NCBI GenBank assembly: GCA_022450705.1
Contig: JAKUPP010000010.1
Coordinates: 1-33,034, forward strand
Direction of reading: 5' to 3'
Source of the DNA: Alphaproteobacteria bacterium
GTDB taxonomy: Bacteria > Pseudomonadota > Alphaproteobacteria > GCA-002720895
DNA length: 33,034 nucleotides
The stretch's first letter is position 1. Each line of letters begins with the position of its first letter. A program made the translations under genes and the position numbers. Positions 1-9,165 of the stretch are shown piece after piece. The notes under the pieces are model-generated. The model saw nothing but the letters and a program-made list of their open reading frames with translations, was not told the origin of the DNA and did not search any database.

Positions 1-410
1 CCTTTTATAACTTCAATTGCTGCAATTCTCTCATCTGGTGGTATGTAATGTGTTGTTGGATCCGTATATGGTGCAAAATTAAGTGGGTTATATTCTTCGT
101 ATACACTTATTTTTCTTGATCTTCTAGAATGTGCTCCACGAATTCCAAAATTAGCTTTACGAGTATCTCCATCATCCATTTCTGAAATAACTCCTGGTAT
201 TTCTTCAAGTGTCTCTCCAACTGTCAATCCTCTTGATTTATCCATTTTTTCTCTGCCAACGTAATTTGTAGATCCTGGCGTTAAACGTGTTCTATCGCCA
301 ATTGATGATTGAATTTCAATGTCAGGTAAAACTATAGTTTCTTCTTCATCAGAAAAAACTTTTGTAGAAAAATTAAAAAATAAAAAAAATATAATAAATA
401 ATCTAAGCAT
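1..410 (-). CDS. TonB-dependent outer-membrane receptor, N-terminal part (LutH-like by context)
   Basis: The minus-strand reading frame opens at ATG 410 and runs off the left edge, giving about 136 residues. I see a signal peptide (about residues 1-20, ending near VFS-DEE). A TonB-box-like ETIVL follows just after the predicted cleavage site. The plug-domain pattern comes next, with GLTVGETLEEIPGV around residues 62-75 and then FGIRGAHSR. This is the typical start of a TonB-dependent receptor, which imports scarce metal complexes across the outer membrane using proton-motive force. The barrel lies outside the window, so the ligand cannot be read. The neighbouring ABC, propeller and exported-protein genes match the lanthanide-uptake (lut) cluster of Methylorubrum, whose receptor is LutH; the lanthanide assignment is therefore contextual. 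Siderophore or other metal chelates are the alternative. Confidence 0.85.
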   Translation of the reverse strand, partial: MLRLFIIFFLFFNFSTKVFSDEEETIVLPDIEIQSSIGDRTRLTPGSTNYVGREKMDKSRGLTVGETLEEIPGVISEMDDGDTRKANFGIRGAHSRRSRKISVYEEYNPLNFAPYTDPTTHYIPPDERIAAIEVIK

Positions 411-432
411 TTTTTTTTACACATATTTTATA

Positions 433-462
433 TATATATTATTAATTCTATGACTAGTTCAA
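433..462 (-). promoter_or_regulatory. Possible promoter of the TonB-dependent receptor gene
   Basis: On the minus strand TTGAAC (457-462) is followed 18 bases later by TATATA (433-438), about 23 bases upstream of the receptor ATG at 410. The region is AT-rich, so chance matches are common. The 109-base gap to the preceding gene fits a separate promoter. Confidence 0.3.
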
Positions 463-519
463 AATTTTATTATTGTATAAAGGATTATATCGATTAGAAA
501 TAATGGTATTTAAATGTAT

Positions 520-927
520 TTAGCCCCCATGTTGTGTTGGGTATGTTTCTTCAACTTTAATATCAGGAGAATCTAGGATCCCTTTTGCTTCTCTAGCTAC
601 AATAAGAACTTTATCTTTTGATAGTTCTTCAAGATTTTCTTTTGGTAGGCTTGGGTTTCTTGCAACAGCTCTTCTTACATAAGGATCTTCATCTTTTGAA
701 AATATAACTAATTTATTTTCTTCAGTTTTTGGATTTAAAGCTTGTGAAAGTTTAAACGATGGGATAGGTGTTTTAGTAAAATCAATATAATGTGGGTCTT
801 CCTTTGTTTTTTCATCTATCTTCTTAAATTTAAAATACAATCTTCCAATATAATAAACCACGTAAAATATAGGTTTTAAAATAATAGTTATGATTTTTTG
901 TAAAAAACTACCTCTGTATGGATCCAT
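520..927 (-). CDS. Small membrane-anchored LRV-repeat protein
   Basis: A 135-residue protein. A hydrophobic segment near residues 10-32 suggests a single membrane anchor. A basic and acidic linker follows, then a C-terminal repeat region (about residues 75-115) with the pattern DEDPYVRRAVARNPSLP..NLEELSKD..L.VAREA. This is the leucine-rich-repeat-variant (LRV/HEAT-like) motif known from short alpha-solenoid proteins, usually used for protein binding. It starts 3 bases after the stop of the 32-residue peptide, with a GGAGG at 940-944 upstream, so the two are probably co-translated with the radical SAM gene before them. I cannot assign a specific function; a scaffold or assembly role for the neighbouring radical SAM or receptor protein is only a guess. 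Confidence 0.7.
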   Translation of the reverse strand: MDPYRGSFLQKIITIILKPIFYVVYYIGRLYFKFKKIDEKTKEDPHYIDFTKTPIPSFKLSQALNPKTEENKLVIFSKDEDPYVRRAVARNPSLPKENLEELSKDKVLIVAREAKGILDSPDIKVEETYPTQHGG

Positions 928-930
928 TTT

Positions 931-1029
931 TTATCTTGTCCTCCATCTAGAATGAGTTATGCAAATTTTAATAAATAAAAAAATTATAACTAAAGCCAGT
1001 ACTCCAAGTATTATGAATAATGTTTGCAT
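931..1029 (-). CDS. 32-residue single-span membrane peptide
   Basis: ATG at 1029 opens a short frame that begins MQTLFIILGVLALVIIF, which is one strongly hydrophobic span. It ends in a basic tail (THSRWRTR) with TAA at 931-933. The frame fills the gap between the radical SAM gene (stop at 1048) and the LRV gene (start at 927) almost exactly, leaving 18 and 3 bases. That spacing, the membrane-peptide composition and the positive tail support a real gene. Function unknown. It could be a membrane partner of the adjacent anchored LRV protein. Confidence 0.55.
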   Translation of the reverse strand: MQTLFIILGVLALVIIFLFIKICITHSRWRTR

Positions 1030-1047
1030 AATAATTTTATTCTAAGA

Positions 1048-2814
1048 TTATCTAACTTGTTTTCCTGCGTGAAATAATGCGTATTTTATAAAATATGACC
1101 AGGGAGCGCCTGCGTGTACTCTGATATTCAATAAACCTTCAGTTATTTTCCATACTACTCTATTAAATTTGTTATCTGGTAATTCCATGAGTTTTTCTAC
1201 TGCTTTCCTTAATCCAGGAAATCTTATTAAAACATGAGAATATCTTGAAAGTTTTAAAATATATAAACCCAATTTATCTCTACGATAATTATCATAAAAA
1301 ACCATTTCTTTACTTCCAAAAACATTTTTTCCATGATTATAGCCTGAGTTGTGTTGATTTTCATTTATACCAGTTTTATGCATGACTGATCTGCTAGTCA
1401 AATAAGCCTCATCAGCCGGAATAAACAAATCATCGTATTTCTTTTTATCATCTGCAGCATCCTTTGCGTTCTGATTTATTTCTGAAGCTGCTTTATTTCT
1501 AGCTGCAATTTCAGGAGGAACTTTATTATTAGTATTGCTTGTTACATCCTTATTATTATTAGTATTGGTTGTTACATTCTCATTATCTGTTCCAGTTTTA
1601 CGCCATGTCGGTGGGGCAACGCTGCCCGGTGCCATAACATCAGAAGCTTTATACTGGCCTAATTCGAGACCAACATTATTTATTTCTAGTCCTGGAAAAG
1701 GTTTAAAAATATTAATACCGTGAACACCCGTTTTTCCTGTAAGTCTTCTTGCAACATCCAAAGTTTCCATTGCGTACTCCTGTGTTTCACCTGGAAGACC
1801 TAGCATCATTTGCATAGAATAACGTATGCCATATTTGTTCATTCGATCTGTTACTTTTATTAAATCATCATTTTTAATACTTTTTCTTAAAGTTCTATAT
1901 CTAAATTCTTCATTACCTGTTTCTAAACCAAAACGGACAAGTCTACATTTTTTAGTATCAGCAAGTGCCTTACATACATCTTCATTCATTTCTGGTATAA
2001 CAACATTAATTGAAAAGGTTTGTTTTAATTTTGACTTTTTATAGGCTTTACAAAAATCAACGATCCATTCTTTATTATAAGTTAAAGTACTATCATTAAA
2101 AAAGAAGTCTTTAGCATCATATTTTTTTGACAACATTTTTAATTCTCTAATAACATGTCCTACGCTTCTAAGATTTGTATACTCTTTTCCATTCATTCCA
2201 GCATCTTCATGAATTTTTTTGTAACCAGCATTAAAGCAATATGTACATGGATAAGGACAACCTCGGCCAGCTAATACTTGTGTAAATGGAACAATTCGAA
2301 AATATGGGTCTTTATCCCAATAAATATCCCTGTCTTCAAATGGTGCAGCATCCATATCCATTAACCAATATCTCATTGGATTTTTATTTACCACACCTTT
2401 TTTATTTTTTATGTGAAGATTGCCAATTTTAAGATTTCTCCAATCTTTTTTTTTATCTAAAGCATTGCAAAATTCTACCATTGGATCGCCGCCCTCTCCT
2501 TTGCAAATAACATCTAAATTAGAATTTTCTAAAATTTGAGGCATAAATGTAATATCATATCCTCCAGCCATTAAAGGAATATTCAAATTTGCTTCTTTTA
2601 TAGCATCAACTGTAGCTAACATATGATTTCTATATGAAGTTAAAACAGAAAAAGCTACTAAATCTGCCTTATTTTCTTCAACATATTTAACAATCTCAGA
2701 AGGACTTCCTATTGCAACATCGGTAGTATGGCCTGCTTTTTTTAAATATGCTGACAAAGCCATTGTGCTTTGTAATGGAAAAAACATTTCTTGTGCAAAT
2801 ATTATATGTGCCAT
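1048..2814 (-). CDS. Radical SAM protein with cobalamin-binding-like N-terminal domain
   Basis: A 588-residue protein. Residues 1-120 have the Rossmann-like layout of B12-binding domains (SVLTS near 57, then AGGYD near 84), but the cobalamin-ligand motif DxHxxG is not visible at the N-terminus (AQEMFFPLQS instead). The radical SAM core follows, with the cluster motif GRGCPYPCTYC (CxxxCxxC) near residues 182-192. Downstream, RFGLETGNEEFR and MLGLPGET are typical of B12-binding radical SAM enzymes. Residues about 410-430 form an Asn/Thr-rich linker encoded by a short tandem repeat. Family members do methylations, ring contractions and other radical modifications; the substrate here is unknown. 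It lies between the ABC genes and the TonB receptor, with two small genes just downstream. A role in making or modifying a metal-binding molecule is inference only. Confidence 0.85.
   Translation of the reverse strand: MAHIIFAQEMFFPLQSTMALSAYLKKAGHTTDVAIGSPSEIVKYVEENKADLVAFSVLTSYRNHMLATVDAIKEANLNIPLMAGGYDITFMPQILENSNLDVICKGEGGDPMVEFCNALDKKKDWRNLKIGNLHIKNKKGVVNKNPMRYWLMDMDAAPFEDRDIYWDKDPYFRIVPFTQVLAGRGCPYPCTYCFNAGYKKIHEDAGMNGKEYTNLRSVGHVIRELKMLSKKYDAKDFFFNDSTLTYNKEWIVDFCKAYKKSKLKQTFSINVVIPEMNEDVCKALADTKKCRLVRFGLETGNEEFRYRTLRKSIKNDDLIKVTDRMNKYGIRYSMQMMLGLPGETQEYAMETLDVARRLTGKTGVHGINIFKPFPGLEINNVGLELGQYKASDVMAPGSVAPPTWRKTGTDNENVTTNTNNNKDVTSNTNNKVPPEIAARNKAASEINQNAKDAADDKKKYDDLFIPADEAYLTSRSVMHKTGINENQHNSGYNHGKNVFGSKEMVFYDNYRRDKLGLYILKLSRYSHVLIRFPGLRKAVEKLMELPDNKFNRVVWKITEGLLNIRVHAGAPWSYFIKYALFHAGKQVR
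1525..1590 (-). repeat. 30-base imperfect tandem repeat in the radical SAM gene
   Basis: Two adjacent 30-base copies (1531-1560 and 1561-1590) align with few mismatches, and ATTATT precedes each. They encode the Asn/Thr-rich segment NVTTNT/DVTSNT. The period is a multiple of three, so copy-number change would keep the reading frame. Confidence 0.8.
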
Positions 2815-2846
2815 GTTTAATATATATGTTAATTAACTATTTAAAT

Positions 2847-2875
2847 ACTATACCAATATCTGGTTATTTTTGAAA
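2847..2875 (-). promoter_or_regulatory. Possible extended -10 promoter of the radical SAM unit
   Basis: On the minus strand TATAGT (2847-2852) is preceded by TGG, giving an extended -10. TTTCAA (2870-2875) lies 17 bases further upstream. The distance to the ATG at 2814 is about 32 bases. The 119-base gap after the exported-protein gene supports a new transcription start here. Confidence 0.4.
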
Positions 2876-2933
2876 TATTTTTAATCAATAAAATCGATTA
2901 GTTACGTACTTTTTCTAGGAATAAACCGTAAAA

Positions 2934-3542
2934 TTAAATATATTCAAGAATTATGCCGCTATAAATTCCTAGTCTTTTTTCATAAAATCTAGGTTGTTCA
3001 CATAAACTATCAGAAAGAGATCTTCTATCTTCAAATCTTCTAACATCCCAAAAATTTTCTTGTTCTAATTTTTGTATCTCGTCTTTATTTGACTCATAAT
3101 CTTTAGATAATTTTTTTATTTTTCCTAGCTTCGTAGATATTTTTTCTGATGTTAGTCTTTGTCTTTTTCCAAAATTTAATAATTTTATATTTCTTTTTTT
3201 CCATATATTATTTGTTGTATCAAATAAAGCATGAAATAATTTGGTAAGTTGCTCTGGTGATTTATTTTTCTTTATATATTTTCTCAATTCTTTAACACCT
3301 TCTTTTTCTTTAGTGTTTCTTTTCATTAATTTTTCCGCAAAAGTATTTAATTTCTCATCATCTATCCATTTAGAAGATTTTTCATCAAGAGGCGGGCCTG
3401 TCCATATTGACCCCCAACTTAATTCTTCAATATATACTTGAATACATGGCCAATCCACATTCTTCTCTTTACCTGGCGGCTTTGCAAAAATATTATTTGC
3501 TAAAAAGAATAATATTAAAAAAATAGATATTTTTTTTGTCAT
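2934..3542 (-). CDS. Exported protein of a PQQ/lanthanide-associated locus (LutG-like position)
   Basis: A 202-residue protein with a clear signal peptide (about residues 1-20, ending NIFA-K). The mature part begins near DWPCIQVYIEELSWGSIWTGPP, with a WPCxQ motif and a WTGP motif. I recall such motifs from small exported proteins beside ABC genes in methylotrophs. The middle is lysine-rich and helical (KISTKLGKIKKLSKDYESN). A second cysteine sits near the C-terminus (SLCEQPRFYEKRLG), so a disulfide with the first is possible. It follows the permease by 7 bases and is therefore probably in the same operon. In the Methylorubrum lut cluster an exported protein sits in this position between the ABC permease and the TonB receptor. 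Molecular function is unknown. Confidence 0.7.
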   Translation of the reverse strand: MTKKISIFLILFFLANNIFAKPPGKEKNVDWPCIQVYIEELSWGSIWTGPPLDEKSSKWIDDEKLNTFAEKLMKRNTKEKEGVKELRKYIKKNKSPEQLTKLFHALFDTTNNIWKKRNIKLLNFGKRQRLTSEKISTKLGKIKKLSKDYESNKDEIQKLEQENFWDVRRFEDRRSLSDSLCEQPRFYEKRLGIYSGIILEYI

Positions 3543-3549
3543 AAAAAAA

Positions 3550-4371
3550 CTAAACCTTTTTCTTTAGAATAACGCCTTTACTAGGATCATATCCATAAAT
3601 TGCTAATATCAAAAAAATTAATAAATAAATTGAAACAAAAACAAGAGACTTTTCATTAAGTTGTCCATATAGTGAGAAACGGATAAGTTCTACAGCATGA
3701 GTAAATGGATTATAAGAACAAAAATAAAATAAAATTTCACTGGATTCTCTAATTTTCCATAGAGGATATAATGCTGAAGATGCAAAAAACATTGGAAAAA
3801 TTACAAAATTCATAACGCCTGCAAAATTTTCTAACTGTTTAATTGCTGATGATAAAAACATACCTAAAGCTCCTAACATCATTCCAGATAAAAAAAGTGC
3901 GGGTATTACCGTTAAATAACCAAATGTTGGAGGTTGAACATCCCAAAATAATGCAATCATTAAAAATGCAAAAACCTGAAGAATACTTACTGATACTCCT
4001 GCTACTAATTTTGAAATTAATAAAAAGGATCTTGGGAATGGACTTACCAGTAAAGTTCTCATACTTCCCATCTCTCTATCATAAACCATTGAAAGAGAAC
4101 TTTGCATACCATTAAACAACTGAATCATTGCTATTAAACCTGCTGCTATATAAAGCTCGTATGGAACTAAAGATATTGGATAAGGCCAATTTTCCGGTTG
4201 CCCTAATGGTCTACTTATTCCTAAAAAAGAACGAAAACCCACTGCGAAAATTGCAAGCCACACTAAAGGTCTAACTAAAGCAGAAAAAAATCTTTCTCTT
4301 TGATAAAAAAACCTTAGAGATTCTCTAAATACAATTCCTTTAAAACACAAATAATATTGAAATATATTCAT
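3550..4371 (-). CDS. ABC-2 type transporter permease (PQQ/lut-associated)
   Basis: A 273-residue inner-membrane protein with about six hydrophobic spans. It has the ABC-2 layout: an N-terminal amphipathic stretch (FRESLRFFYQRERFFSALVRPLVW), spans around residues 30-50 and 105-245, and the motif VYDREMGSMRTLLVSPFPR near 95-113 that contacts the ATPase. It starts 2 bases after the ATPase stop and is surely its partner. This pair belongs to the permease/ATPase families linked to PQQ-dependent alcohol dehydrogenase loci (the ped and lut clusters). In Methylorubrum the equivalent (LutF) was proposed to move lanthanide across the inner membrane. ABC-2 permeases more often export, so direction should not be assumed. 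Confidence 0.85.
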   Translation of the reverse strand: MNIFQYYLCFKGIVFRESLRFFYQRERFFSALVRPLVWLAIFAVGFRSFLGISRPLGQPENWPYPISLVPYELYIAAGLIAMIQLFNGMQSSLSMVYDREMGSMRTLLVSPFPRSFLLISKLVAGVSVSILQVFAFLMIALFWDVQPPTFGYLTVIPALFLSGMMLGALGMFLSSAIKQLENFAGVMNFVIFPMFFASSALYPLWKIRESSEILFYFCSYNPFTHAVELIRFSLYGQLNEKSLVFVSIYLLIFLILAIYGYDPSKGVILKKKV

Positions 4372-4373
4372 AA

Positions 4374-5102
4374 TTAATCTTTTGTATAATAATCAAATGC
4401 ATTTGATACATTCTTTGTTTTAGTTTTTCTTAAAATATTTTTTACATGATCGTTTGCTAATACTTTTCCACGATGTAAAACAATAAGCTTTCCATTTTGA
4501 TCAACTTCATCAATTAAATGTGTTGCCCAAAGTACAGCCAATTGTTTTTCTTTACATAAACTTTTTACATGTTTGACAATAAGCTTTCTACTTTCTATGT
4601 CTACGCCAACTGTGGGCTCGTCTAATAAAAGAAGTTTAGGATTGTGCATAAGCGCTCTAACAATTTCTACTCTTCTTTTTTGACCTCCACTCAATTCACG
4701 TACCTTTTTTTTTAAAATATTTTCCATATTTTGTCTTTTTAATTCTATTAGAGCATTATTTAAAGCAAATTTCTTTCGCATACCATGAAGAGATGCGTGA
4801 TATTGTAAATTTTGTTCAACTGTTAAATCTAAATCTACTGTAGGTTGTTGGAAAACAACGCCTATGTTTGCTAATGCTTTAGTTGGATTTTTTTTTAGAT
4901 TATGAGAAAAAATTTCAATTAAACCAGTTTGATTATCATACAATCTTGTAATTAAAGAAAAAAGAGTTGTTTTACCAGCACCATTTAAACCTAATAATAT
5001 TGAATAGTCTCCTTCATTTAATGTAATATCTATATTATCTAAAGCTTTTAGGCTTCCAAAATTATGGTTTAAAGTTTTTATAGTTAAAGCTGAAGAGTTC
5101 AT
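4374..5102 (-). CDS. ABC transporter ATP-binding protein (PQQ/lut-associated)
   Basis: A 242-residue ATPase with all core motifs: Walker A GLNGAGKTTL near residues 38-47, Q-loop in VVFQQPT near 83, signature LSGGQKRR near 138, Walker B LLLLDEPTVG near 158-167, and the switch histidine in WATHLIDE near 193. It is the length expected for single-domain ABC ATPases. It sits between the beta-propeller gene and the permease, an order seen in PQQ-alcohol-dehydrogenase-associated and lanthanide-uptake clusters (LutE-like). It powers the permease encoded 2 bases downstream. The ATPase assignment is certain; the transported substrate is inferred from context. Confidence 0.92.
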   Translation of the reverse strand: MNSSALTIKTLNHNFGSLKALDNIDITLNEGDYSILLGLNGAGKTTLFSLITRLYDNQTGLIEIFSHNLKKNPTKALANIGVVFQQPTVDLDLTVEQNLQYHASLHGMRKKFALNNALIELKRQNMENILKKKVRELSGGQKRRVEIVRALMHNPKLLLLDEPTVGVDIESRKLIVKHVKSLCKEKQLAVLWATHLIDEVDQNGKLIVLHRGKVLANDHVKNILRKTKTKNVSNAFDYYTKD

Positions 5103-5129
5103 ATTAATTTAAGAATAAAAAAGATTTTT

Positions 5130-6092
5130 TTAATCTCTAACAGCTACGCCCCATGGATATCTACCAACTGGAATTGATTTAATTACTTTTCTTTTATCAA
5201 TATCTATTACAGAAATATCATTACTAACGCCGTTTGTTGTATAAAGTTTTGTGCCATCAGTATTAATCATCAAATTCCAGACTCGTTGTCCTGTTAAAAT
5301 ATATTTTTCAACTTCAAATGTTTTCATATTTATAATTCCAATTCTATTTGCCGGTCCAAGAGCAACGTAAGCTAATTGTCTTTTCTCGTCTAGTCTAACT
5401 CCAACAGGCTGGACAGACTCTTTAGACATACCTGGAATTTTAAATTCTATTTTTTTAATTATTTCAAACTTTACTGGATCTATAATACTAATAGTTCCTC
5501 CAATTTCAGATGAAACCCAAACAAATTTTCCATCATCAGTATATTGAGCTACTCTTGGACGAGCATCAACTAAAACATTGGCTTTAATTTCCAGAGTAGC
5601 TGTGTCAATAAAATGAGCCATATTTGTAGTTTCAGAAGTATTAACTAAAGTTTTCCCATCTGGACTTAAACCCATACCTTCTGGCTCAACACCAACTGGA
5701 ATTTCTTTAACAATTTTTTTTTCTATATAATCAACCACTGTTACCATATTATCATCTTCATTAGCAACATAGATAAACTTGCCAGCGTCATCCATTACCA
5801 TTAATTCTGGATCAGGACCAGATGGTAAATAATACTCAACTTCTAAACTTCCTACATCAACAACTGCAATCCTATTGTCATCACTTGTACAAATTATTAT
5901 TTTTTTTTTATCTTTACTTAAAATTATACCTCTTGGCCTATGTCCAACTTTAACTGTTTTAATAACTTCTAAAGAATTTCCATCTATAACAGACATGTTA
6001 TGATCTTTTTCATTTGATACATATATTACCTCACCAAATGCAGCTTTTTGAATCAGAGTTAAGAAAAGAATTAATATAATTTTTTTTATCAT
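5130..6092 (-). CDS. Periplasmic YVTN-type beta-propeller protein (PQQ-associated)
   Basis: A 320-residue protein with a signal peptide (residues 1-20, FG-EV) followed by about seven repeats of the form YV.N...N.V.VID...E....I.VG..P.G. Examples are YVSNEKDHNMSVID, YVANEDDNMVTVVD and YTTNGVSNDISVID. This is the beta-propeller family that accompanies PQQ-dependent alcohol oxidation and the lut cluster of methylotrophs. The closing copy ends with VGRYPWGVAVRD. It is exported and probably periplasmic. It lies 27 bases upstream of the ATPase and 36 bases after the binding-protein gene, so it is in the same operon. Propellers of this kind are thought to bind ligands or partner proteins; the ligand is not known. 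No CXXCH haem motif is present. Confidence 0.88.
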   Translation of the reverse strand: MIKKIILILFLTLIQKAAFGEVIYVSNEKDHNMSVIDGNSLEVIKTVKVGHRPRGIILSKDKKKIIICTSDDNRIAVVDVGSLEVEYYLPSGPDPELMVMDDAGKFIYVANEDDNMVTVVDYIEKKIVKEIPVGVEPEGMGLSPDGKTLVNTSETTNMAHFIDTATLEIKANVLVDARPRVAQYTDDGKFVWVSSEIGGTISIIDPVKFEIIKKIEFKIPGMSKESVQPVGVRLDEKRQLAYVALGPANRIGIINMKTFEVEKYILTGQRVWNLMINTDGTKLYTTNGVSNDISVIDIDKRKVIKSIPVGRYPWGVAVRD

Positions 6093-6128
6093 TTGTTTAC
6101 ATCCAATAAAAATAAAATTTATTTTTTA

Positions 6129-7316
6129 TTAATTAAATCTACATTTTGTATCTGGTTGGTCAACACCTAGAGTATCTAATTCTGTTCTTGGGTGGACAAA
6201 CCCTATTTGAGGAGAAACAGAAACTAAGGCTCTAGGGGTTACTAATAAAATAGGTTGTCGCAACTGACCATTCCATTTTCTAAAACTAACTGGTTTTCCT
6301 TTATATGCTGCTAAATTAAATTTTTCATCCATAATTTTATCTAAAACTATTTTTGAATCTAATGATTTGGTTCTAGTAATTGCTTCGCCAATTGCTCTAA
6401 CTCCTACCCAAGAATTAAAATCTATATTTGTCATAAGTCTTTTAGAATCTTTTAAAAAACGACTTTGCATTTGATTTCCTCCCCATTGTTCATGTGCAAA
6501 ATGCCATGATGTTGGCTTTAATACTTCTCCACCAACAACTATTGTAGGCTTCCATGTTCTATAAGGGATATAATCACCAAAACTATTACCTGAATCACCA
6601 AAAGTATTTCCTTCATCTGCTAAAACTAAAACTTCGTATTTTTCTCCCTGTGTAAATTTAACAACTTCAAGATCTGCTGATCTTCTAAAATCATGATTAA
6701 AATCCCATATTTTTTCATTAATTATTTTTAATCCAAATCTTTTTGATGAAACTTTTATAGAATCTGCAAATTGTTTATCTCTTTCATTTACACCTGATAT
6801 TAATAGTAACTTAACCCAATTCTTTTTCTTTAAAAATTGAGTTAATGCATCAGAAAGCATTCTGTAACTTGGTGCTGTATGTAAGATTTGTTTATTACAT
6901 TTTTCGTTTCTTAAATCATTATCTTTTAAAGAGGTGTTAATTAAAAGCGCATCTTCTAGTAAATCTGACGAAAGTATTTTGTTAAAATCATCCTTAGAGA
7001 CATTCAGAATAAAAAATTTGTATTTATCTTTCCTAAATTTTTCGAAAATTTCTTTTGCAGATTCGTTTGGCATTATATTTTGTTCTATTAATTCAAAATT
7101 CTGATTGGTAAATTTACCTGTTGTGTTATTGTCTTTAATTCCCATTCTGCTACCTAAAATACCATTATTTATAATCTCAGGATTAATTGAATAAATTGTT
7201 GGTTCTCGTTCAATTATTCTATTTAAATGAACTATTTTAATTTGTTGAATTTCTGCAGCAATAATTGAGAAAATAAAAAGAAAATAAAAGAAAATAATAT
7301 AAAAAATGTTTTTCAT
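6129..7316 (-). CDS. Periplasmic binding protein of PQQ-associated ABC system (LutA-like)
   Basis: A 395-residue protein with a signal peptide (about residues 1-21). The fold is of the branched-chain amino-acid binding type. Diagnostic stretches match the binding proteins of PQQ-dependent alcohol dehydrogenase loci: GSRMGIKDNNTTGKF near residues 55-69, SYRMLSDALTQFL near 150, VLVLADEG followed by IPYRTW near 230-255, and WHFAHEQWGGNQMQSRF near 271-287. It is the first gene of the minus-strand operon and starts opposite the ExbB-like gene across a 123-base gap. In Methylorubrum the homologous protein (LutA) belongs to the lanthanide-uptake ABC system. Unlike its relatives as I remember them, it carries a seven-residue tandem duplication (GNTFGDS/GNSFGDY) before the PYRTW motif. 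Confidence 0.88.
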   Translation of the reverse strand: MKNIFYIIFFYFLFIFSIIAAEIQQIKIVHLNRIIEREPTIYSINPEIINNGILGSRMGIKDNNTTGKFTNQNFELIEQNIMPNESAKEIFEKFRKDKYKFFILNVSKDDFNKILSSDLLEDALLINTSLKDNDLRNEKCNKQILHTAPSYRMLSDALTQFLKKKNWVKLLLISGVNERDKQFADSIKVSSKRFGLKIINEKIWDFNHDFRRSADLEVVKFTQGEKYEVLVLADEGNTFGDSGNSFGDYIPYRTWKPTIVVGGEVLKPTSWHFAHEQWGGNQMQSRFLKDSKRLMTNIDFNSWVGVRAIGEAITRTKSLDSKIVLDKIMDEKFNLAAYKGKPVSFRKWNGQLRQPILLVTPRALVSVSPQIGFVHPRTELDTLGVDQPDTKCRFN

Positions 7317-7399
7317 ATATAGAAAGTAGTTTAGTTAATTAAATTAAATCATTTTTTTTTTACATATAACATCATTTATAGGGTGAATATAGAATAATC

Positions 7400-7414
7400 G
7401 TTAGTTGAATTAAC
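7400..7414. promoter_or_regulatory. Imperfect palindrome in the divergent lut/exbB-like gap
   Basis: GTTAGTT-G-AATTAAC has half-sites that match at six of seven positions. It sits in the only intergenic gap between the minus-strand lut-like operon and the plus-strand proton-channel genes. A shared regulator site is possible, but in such AT-rich DNA chance is a serious alternative. Confidence 0.2.
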
Positions 7415-7439
7415 AAAAAAAAAATTTAATATCCTTACT

Positions 7440-7970
7440 ATGAAACCTTTATTGAGATGGTGGTTGTTCATAAGCTTAACAATAATATTAACTTTTGCTT
7501 TTTACTATTTCGGTCTTTTTGCAGAAGTTTGGGATAAAGATAGAACTAAATTATCTTTTTTAATAATGTTTTTATTTTTCGTAACTTCAATTCATTGCGG
7601 TAAAGAAACAATTAAAGTATCAAATGCTTTAGAAGGAAATATTTCAGAAAATGAAATTAAGAATATAGATTGGAGAGGTAACCAAGAAGTTGGTTGGTTT
7701 ATCTCTGATTTTGTTTTAACAATTGGAATGGTTGGAACAGTTTCAGGTTTTCTACTTATGCTTACAGGAGCTTTTGCGGGCGTTGATCTTAATGATGAAG
7801 TTGCGATGCAAAATGTTTTAGAAAAAATGTCAAAAGGAATGTCTACTGCTCTTTACACAACTCTCTTTGGTCTTATTTCCGGTGGTTTACTAAAAATACA
7901 ATATTTTAGTCTTGGAAGAGCTACAGATCTTTTGGTTGATCCTATCGAAAAAAAAAATAAGGAAAAATAA
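7440..7970 (+). CDS. ExbB/TolQ/MotA-like proton channel protein
   Basis: A 176-residue inner-membrane protein. Two hydrophobic spans lie near the N-terminus (about residues 8-27 and 34-52). Two further spans carry the family signature: VLTIGMVGTVSGFLLML near residues 91-107 and STALYTTLFGLISGGLLK near 133-150, matching the GxxGTVxG and ALxTTxxGL patterns of ExbB/TolQ. It is shorter than typical ExbB (about 240) and lacks the long cytoplasmic loop. The stop overlaps the next start (TAATG), showing translational coupling with the ExbD-like gene. By homology the pair would form a proton-driven motor. Placement opposite a locus with a TonB-dependent receptor suggests, but does not prove, that it energises that receptor. 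Confidence 0.8.
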   Translation: MKPLLRWWLFISLTIILTFAFYYFGLFAEVWDKDRTKLSFLIMFLFFVTSIHCGKETIKVSNALEGNISENEIKNIDWRGNQEVGWFISDFVLTIGMVGTVSGFLLMLTGAFAGVDLNDEVAMQNVLEKMSKGMSTALYTTLFGLISGGLLKIQYFSLGRATDLLVDPIEKKNKEK

Positions 7971-8566
7971 TGCAGCGTAGGTATCATACAAATCTTCCTT
8001 TTCTTGACTTGCTATTTAATGTCTTAATTGGCTTTGTTTTTTTATTTATTGTTTCTTTTTTATTAATTAATCCAATTGCCAAAAGGGCTGACATTGAAGT
8101 TAAAGCAGAATTCTTGATAACTGTTTTTTGGCCTGATAATTTAGAAGATGATGTAGATATTTATGTTGAAGATCCTGCTGGAAATCTAGTTTGGTTTAAG
8201 TCACGTGAGCCAGGATTAATGCATTTAGATAGAGATGATCTAGGAAAAAGAAATGATGAGGTTGTTACTGCAGCTGGAACAATTTTATTCCCAGAAAATA
8301 GAGAAATAGTTACTTTGCGTGGTATTGTGCCAGGTGAATATGTAGTAAACGTCCATTGTTATTTTAAAGTTGGAGGAGATCCTGTTCCAGTTACGATTCA
8401 GATTGACAAAATTAATCCGTACTCTGTTGTTTTAAGAGAAACAGTTGATTTGAATAAAAAAGGAGATGAAATTACTGTAACAAGATTTAGTGTTAACTCA
8501 AAAGGTGAAGTAACAAATGTAAATAAACTTCCTAAAAAATTGGTGCAAGAATGGCAGAAGGGATAA
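7970..8566 (+). CDS. ExbD-like protein with DUF2135-like periplasmic domain
   Basis: A 198-residue protein with one N-terminal span: LPFLDLLFNVLIGFVFLFIV at residues 9-28. The aspartate at about residue 13 is in the place of the proton-carrying Asp of ExbD/TolR. The periplasmic part is not the usual ExbD domain. It reads ITVFWPDNLEDDVDIYVEDPAGN, then LMHLDRDDLG, then VPGEYVVNVHCYFK, the pattern of beta-sandwich domains such as DUF2135 (YfaP-like). It is coupled to the ExbB-like gene upstream by TAATG and overlaps the next gene by 16 bases. The combination suggests a specialised motor whose periplasmic head binds something other than TonB. Function is inferred, and the domain assignment is from pattern only. 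Confidence 0.72.
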   Translation: MQRRYHTNLPFLDLLFNVLIGFVFLFIVSFLLINPIAKRADIEVKAEFLITVFWPDNLEDDVDIYVEDPAGNLVWFKSREPGLMHLDRDDLGKRNDEVVTAAGTILFPENREIVTLRGIVPGEYVVNVHCYFKVGGDPVPVTIQIDKINPYSVVLRETVDLNKKGDEITVTRFSVNSKGEVTNVNKLPKKLVQEWQKG

Positions 8567-9165
8567 TTGGTTTATCAGCAAGTTTTCTACTTTTAGTAGC
8601 CTTGATACTATGGTTAATCATTCTTTCTAAAGGAAAATTCTGGATAATAAAAAGTATTGTCATAACTGTAGCTACTTTGTTCTCTATAATTGTTCTCCTT
8701 TCATTAAAAGATTTTATTGGTTGGCCAAGTAAATCTGAACTACCTCAAGAATTTCAATTACATTGGGCTATAATTGATGAACCTGACAAAATTAAAAATA
8801 CTGAAGGTGCTATATATATGTGGATTACTAGATTAGATAAAGAAAATAAAAATAAAGGTTTGCCTAGAGCATATAAGATTGATTATACAAGAAAAAATCA
8901 TGAACAAATTATACAAGGATTAATTAGTTTAGGAGATGGTATCCAACAAAAAGGTGAAAAAGTAAAAGTAAAAGAAGATATCGATATAGATGAAGACTTA
9001 AGTAATCTCCAAGAAATTGTTATTTATGAACTTCCAAAACCTCTGCTTCCAGAAAAAAATACGTCAACAAGAACAGAGCAAGGTGGTCCACCAACTAGTG
9101 GTTTTAATGCTTTAGAAATAGATCCTGAGACTGGAAGACCAATTATTGAAAAAGAAAAAGAATAA
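8551..9165 (+). CDS. Membrane protein of unknown function, third gene of proton-channel operon
   Basis: A 204-residue protein that starts inside the end of the ExbD-like gene (16-base overlap). It has two closely spaced spans (about residues 5-25 and 32-52). A soluble domain follows, with FQLHWAIIDEPDK and IYMWITRLDKENK near residues 65-105. The C-terminus is acidic and Pro/Glu-rich (YELPKPLLPEKN, ending EKEKE). I do not recognise a family. Overlap and orientation say it works with the two channel proteins. The tail after the membrane part could reach across the periplasm in the way TonB does, but no TonB C-terminal domain is visible, so this is speculation. Confidence 0.7.
   Translation: MAEGIIGLSASFLLLVALILWLIILSKGKFWIIKSIVITVATLFSIIVLLSLKDFIGWPSKSELPQEFQLHWAIIDEPDKIKNTEGAIYMWITRLDKENKNKGLPRAYKIDYTRKNHEQIIQGLISLGDGIQQKGEKVKVKEDIDIDEDLSNLQEIVIYELPKPLLPEKNTSTRTEQGGPPTSGFNALEIDPETGRPIIEKEKE

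Follow-up and report, generated by a model that had tools for sequence, protein, structure and literature searches.

Several described systems come close to the locus analyzed here. The lut cluster of Methylorubrum extorquens (lutA–lutH) shares with it a periplasmic binding protein, exported proteins, an ABC ATPase and permease, a protein in the LutG position, a TonB-dependent receptor, and a functional tie to XoxF; in that species, La3+ is held in the periplasm of lutE and lutF mutants, and lutH mutants have no deposits (PMC7391723). The four inner-membrane module families are also shared with Pseudomonas putida, where they form PedA1A2BC and their loss raises the need for La3+ about 100-fold, but P. 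putida lacks homologues of the methylotroph receptors and works with PedH in place of XoxF (PMC6839425). XoxF-type enzymes have been reported to dominate marine methanol-oxidation transcripts, and lanthanide acquisition in the open ocean is poorly known; receptor searches so far rest on few Methylobacteriaceae sequences (PMC11996626). Clade X, a group of marine XoxF5 alphaproteobacteria, has in common with our locus that it comprises uncultured marine alphaproteobacteria with xoxF; the main text of its description reports REE receptors found only via similarity to those of Methylobacteriaceae and does not mention lut genes by name (PMC11996626).

We analyzed a 33,034-nucleotide stretch of DNA from a marine alphaproteobacterium with a small genome (the window), which is contig 2 of an assembly of 989 kb in 101 contigs that is 79% complete. 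A lut-like locus runs along its minus strand from 7316 to 3, where the contig end cuts the receptor gene (Table 1). We put the probability at roughly three in four that this locus forms one end of a lut-pqq-xox supercluster serving the lanthanide-dependent oxidation of methanol (or another alcohol). The best reading is a streamlined supercluster with a FecA-type receptor in the place of LutH. The evidence consists of which genes are present and in what order, of their conservation among sibling species, of the DxD motif carried by the sibling XoxF proteins, and of the phylogeny of the receptor.

Table 1. Features of the lut-like locus and the adjoining divergent genes in the window
Feature	Position	Strand	Evidence
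Periplasmic binding protein, PedA1/LutA type	6129..7316	-	TIGR03863 PQQ_ABC_bind
Exported YVTN beta-propeller, PedA2 type, LutD position	5130..6092	-	TIGR03866
ABC ATPase, PedB/LutE type	4374..5102	-	TIGR03864
ABC-2 permease, PedC/LutF type	3550..4371	-	TIGR03861 PedC
Exported WPCxQ protein, 202 aa, LutG position	2934..3542	-	WPCIQ motif
B12-binding radical-SAM protein	1048..2814	-	PF04055 + PF02310
135-aa protein, one leucine-rich-variant (LRV) repeat	520..927	-	PF01816, 23.3 bits
FecA-like TonB-dependent receptor, first 136 residues	3..410	-	Plug domain
MotA/ExbB-like channel protein, divergent from lut genes	7440..7970	+	PF01618, 27.4 bits
ExbD-like one-helix protein with acidic, possibly TerD-like beta-sandwich domain	7970..8566	+	Alignment, model
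Third trio gene, family unknown	8551..9165	+	ORF; no Pfam match

All four families of the PQQ-associated ABC module occur together in the window, three of them above the curated NCBIfam cut-off: the propeller (469.9 bits, cut-off 287.3), the ATPase (316.8 bits, cut-off 302.3), and the permease (370 bits, cut-off 241.4). The binding protein is ∼3 bits short of its own (410.5 bits, E = 5e-123, cut-off 413.6). The TIGR03863, TIGR03866, TIGR03864, and TIGR03861 proteins correspond to P. putida PedA1, PedA2, PedB, and PedC, respectively. An earlier note on this DNA had named these genes, their transcription order, and their motifs, and all were found where it had put them: DNNTTG, PYRTW, and HEQWG belong to the binding protein and WPCIQ to the 202-aa exported protein. 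Its assignment of the four module proteins to the PQQ-associated ABC families was borne out by the profile searches, and of the families it listed, five stood as described and the receptor is present only as an N-terminal fragment. Gaps among the first five genes, from the binding protein to the WPCxQ gene, are 36, 27, 2, and 7 bases, and the next gaps (WPCxQ to radical-SAM to LRV to receptor) are 119, 120, and 109 bases; because of this tight spacing compared with the wider later gaps, the first five look like one operon. No extra gene that could be lutB or lutC lies between the binding protein, propeller, and ATPase genes, and none was seen in the cluster. The only RNA element found in the window was one tRNA.

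ABC-2 permeases are usually exporters. Together with the annotation of PedB as an efflux ATPase, this speaks for a transporter that exports something (an alcohol, an aldehyde, or a chelator) and imports no metal. We consider export improbable, given that the module includes a periplasmic binding protein and that genetic work on two species favors the import of lanthanides (PMC6839425, PMC7391723).

The window's lut genes recur, at roughly 72%–95% identity, in two sibling genomes, Pelagibacteraceae bacterium isolate SP38 (G003) and the single cell AG-464-G09 (G002). In both, the WPC gene is followed directly by the receptor, then by pqqABCDE and by convergent xoxJ, xoxG, and xoxF; beyond xoxF lie genes for a CXXCW rhodanese, a zinc metallohydrolase, a SoxYZ-like carrier, and LysR. 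The two TIGR03075 matches over the cut-off are the XoxF genes of these siblings, ∼12 kb from the lut binding-protein gene. The sibling XoxF proteins carry WDYD, that is, the DxD lanthanide-type motif (one neighboring residue is masked in SP38), and their closest PDB entries are 6dam and 6oc5, both named as lanthanide-dependent XoxF (about 830 bits; the top-scoring methanol dehydrogenase under another name reaches 607). In a third relative, MarineAlpha6_Bin2 (G005), one contig piece carries the receptor, then pqqABCD and the beginning of pqqE, and other pieces hold two lut loci (L051, L052) with 89% DNA identity, which may be paralogues or come from two strains within the bin. In all three genomes, a pqqA peptide with the E-x-x-x-Y pattern is encoded between the receptor and pqqB. 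The SAR11 label of the earlier note found no footing here: one sibling is named Pelagibacteraceae and two only Alphaproteobacteria, and those listed relatives that lie outside the host's own family share only its class, none of them coming from another family of its order.

No PQQ alcohol dehydrogenase scored over the cut-off in the host's 79%-complete assembly, and weak matches on contig 80 are at the background level of control genomes without such an enzyme. On its own, this absence would count among the outcomes that the earlier note named as refuting its proposal. Because the assembly is incomplete and the window's contig ends inside the receptor, we do not take it as a refutation; the host genome alone neither confirms nor refutes a tie to XoxF. 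The window's own species probably has xoxF beyond the contig end, as xoxF, xoxG, and xoxJ are all present in SP38 and AG-464-G09. The earlier proposal that the organism has a compact lut system of its own is supported for a lut/ped-type import locus tied to XoxF, the tie coming from these two siblings only, and fails for the identity of the receptor with LutH. Compared with the M. extorquens cluster (PMC7391723), the locus has no visible lutB or lutC, a FecA-like receptor, and no lanmodulin, and the sibling loci are joined to pqqABCDE and xoxFGJ.

Lanthanide acquisition best explains the locus, given its inner-membrane module and the association with PQQ genes and XoxF. Driven by TonB/ExbB, the receptor would pass a lanthanide chelate through the outer membrane; transport of the metal into the cytoplasm, on its own or as a chelate, would fall to the LutA-type protein, the propeller, and the LutEF-type ABC transporter, by analogy with the Ln3+ import known from PedA1A2BC and Lut in other species. 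In the periplasm, the WPCxQ/LutG-type protein would play a helper role, and XoxF would use Ln3+ with home-made PQQ and pass electrons to XoxG.

The WPCxQ protein matched no Pfam or NCBIfam family, and a fold search with its AlphaFold model (pLDDT 90, all helical) gave no significant PDB match; W31-P32-C33 and C181 are invariant in an alignment of 15 relatives. The window locus has a LutG-type exported protein after the permease by position and profile, the AM1 LutG sequence being outside the comparison. In another class genome (G285), the protein found by the WPCxQ profile is flanked by the permease and a LutH-like receptor, the place that lutG has in M. extorquens (PMC7391723). The PedC permease was present in 56 of 385 alphaproteobacterial genomes. 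Among the lut loci read in this class survey, the WPCxQ protein accompanied all five that had a regional XoxF at least 55% identical and none of those beside other PQQ dehydrogenases. Elsewhere in AG-464-G09, a second WPC-type protein adjoins a second PQQ dehydrogenase with DxD and a sulfocyanin-like protein (L050:8707-9300 and 6886-8577), an arrangement which suggests that the LutG-like family may be tied to the dehydrogenase and not to the transporter.

The outer-membrane receptor departs most from the earlier note, which had taken it for LutH. The window's fragment is 81% identical to a complete sibling receptor over the shared part, and the tree and approximately unbiased (AU) tests use the complete sibling receptors rather than the 136-residue fragment. 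In a 24-row tree, whose rows comprise neither AM1 LutH nor Methylotuvimicrobium buryatense LanA, the sibling receptors fall among FecA and FecA-like receptors (support 99/98), apart from a clade of LutH-like receptors (support 100/100). The LutH-like clade has as anchors the lut-cluster receptor of G285, a receptor close to the lut genes of G362, plasmid-borne receptors near PQQ propellers in Sphingobium and Novosphingobium, and, in Methylobacterium nodulans, a receptor located two genes away from an EF-hand gene of the lanmodulin type. A union of the sibling receptors with the LutH-like clade was rejected (AU test, p = 5e-6). The FecA-like placement is among the outcomes that the earlier note named as refuting; it overturns the receptor's identity as LutH and leaves the import system standing. 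The branch to the host family's receptors is long (1.66), so their exact place among FecA-like receptors is unsure. A different receptor class is no contradiction, since the published lanthanide receptors LutH and LanA are already two classes, <20% identical (PMC6839425).

The best PDB relative of the receptor is FecA (E = 7e-23), the ferric dicitrate receptor, whose subfamily it shares by both tree and profile. We take R365, R380, R438, Q570, and N721 to be the ferric citrate residues of FecA; only R365 and R380 of these five align (at ∼22% identity), and R438, Q570, and N721 have no same-residue match. Being FecA-like and not LutH-like, the receptor could carry iron: the ABC module would then serve lanthanides, and an ordinary ferric-chelate receptor would sit between lutG and pqqA by chance. 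The clade, the PDB match, and the two aligned arginines favor such a receptor, but both arginines occur in all other FecA-like rows compared and therefore say nothing on iron, and with the FecA ligand residues only partly matched, the cargo cannot be read from sequence. The receptor also differs from FecA in having no N-terminal signaling domain and in its gene neighbors. Its position in the host's family, between lutG and pqqA, is fixed in both siblings that have this stretch, and it stands before pqqA in the family's second genus; the sibling loci showed no ABC genes of the FecBCD type next to it, and the genome encodes another FecA-like receptor at a different place. We therefore regard a chance ferric-chelate receptor as rather unlikely and infer a lanthanide-chelate cargo from the receptor's position.

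That position, beside the pqq operon, would also suit import of PQQ, and PqqU (9c4o) matches among PDB entries too, more weakly than FecA (E = 2e-9). This seems very improbable for a family whose siblings encode pqqABCDE: grouping with PqqU was rejected, more weakly than the LutH-like grouping (AU test, p = 0.026); only R365 of PqqU Y99, R304, and R365 aligns, in an uncertain alignment; and PqqU is reported to be largely absent from Alphaproteobacteria (PMC12124388).

Outside the family, a single receptor matched at E <= 1e-60 among the 385 class genomes. Surveys of the class and phylum found only distant FecA-like receptors, and no lut genes were seen in the neighborhoods of the two that were read. 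The lut-pqq-xox loci of other families (e.g., G122, G146, G324, G063) have the same order and no receptor, and the lut + XoxF loci read in smaller class genomes (1.2–2.5 Mb) likewise lack one; a receptor within the cluster is thus not obligatory. The locus names a specific receptor outside the Methylobacteriaceae similarity range that several related species encode beside uptake and PQQ genes, and surveys with LutH alone would miss it. It is possible, though less likely than not, that the host family's FecA-like receptor is an independently recruited lanthanide-chelate receptor class distinct from LutH and LanA, perhaps for carboxylate-type Ln chelates in seawater, with the divergent trio (Table 1) as a possible metal-responsive energizer or sensor.

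The receptor is one of at least three TonB receptors in the host genome and thus not the only one. A scan of genome contigs with the receptor as query found only the three relatives already known. A fragment on contig 32 was considered as a continuation of the receptor cut at the contig end, but it shows no detectable resemblance to the sibling receptors and belongs to another one. In the host genome, L068:2-1402 encodes the C-terminal half of another TonB receptor; the small membrane ORF next to it looks BtuM-like by eye.

The trio is a possible partner of the lut system through its MotA/ExbB-like and ExbD-like proteins. It adjoins the lut binding-protein gene in G003 and G004 as well, with the third gene kept, and lies beside lut genes in the host's family, G232, G312, and G366. 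A role as general lut partner is weakened by its occurrence in many other genomes, either away from lut or in genomes without the permease. Nor is it the genome's sole ExbB, as better ExbB matches and a TonB are encoded elsewhere. The ExbD-like protein has invariant acidic motifs, DD-x-D and HLDRDD, in its alignment; its acidic domain is possibly TerD-like, judging from weak Foldseek matches (best 2qng and 2qz7, a TerD homologue; E = 3e-3 to 5e-3) to a low-confidence model (pLDDT 66).

An EF-hand search for lanmodulin found none at the locus and one protein away from it, on contig 73 of the host genome (L159). This protein is secreted, 131 aa long, and conserved in the siblings, and 12 residues separate its loops; it was rejected as lanmodulin on the grounds that the loops have no proline at position 2, in the siblings as well.

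Finally, the radical-SAM and LRV genes, which the earlier note does not list, lie between the WPCxQ gene and the receptor in the window's genome only and are absent there in SP38 and AG-464-G09; the radical-SAM gene was not found in five family relatives (54%–89% complete). A role in the lut system is doubtful for the radical-SAM protein and equally so for the LRV protein. The base composition of this stretch (520-2814) is like that of the neighboring genes.
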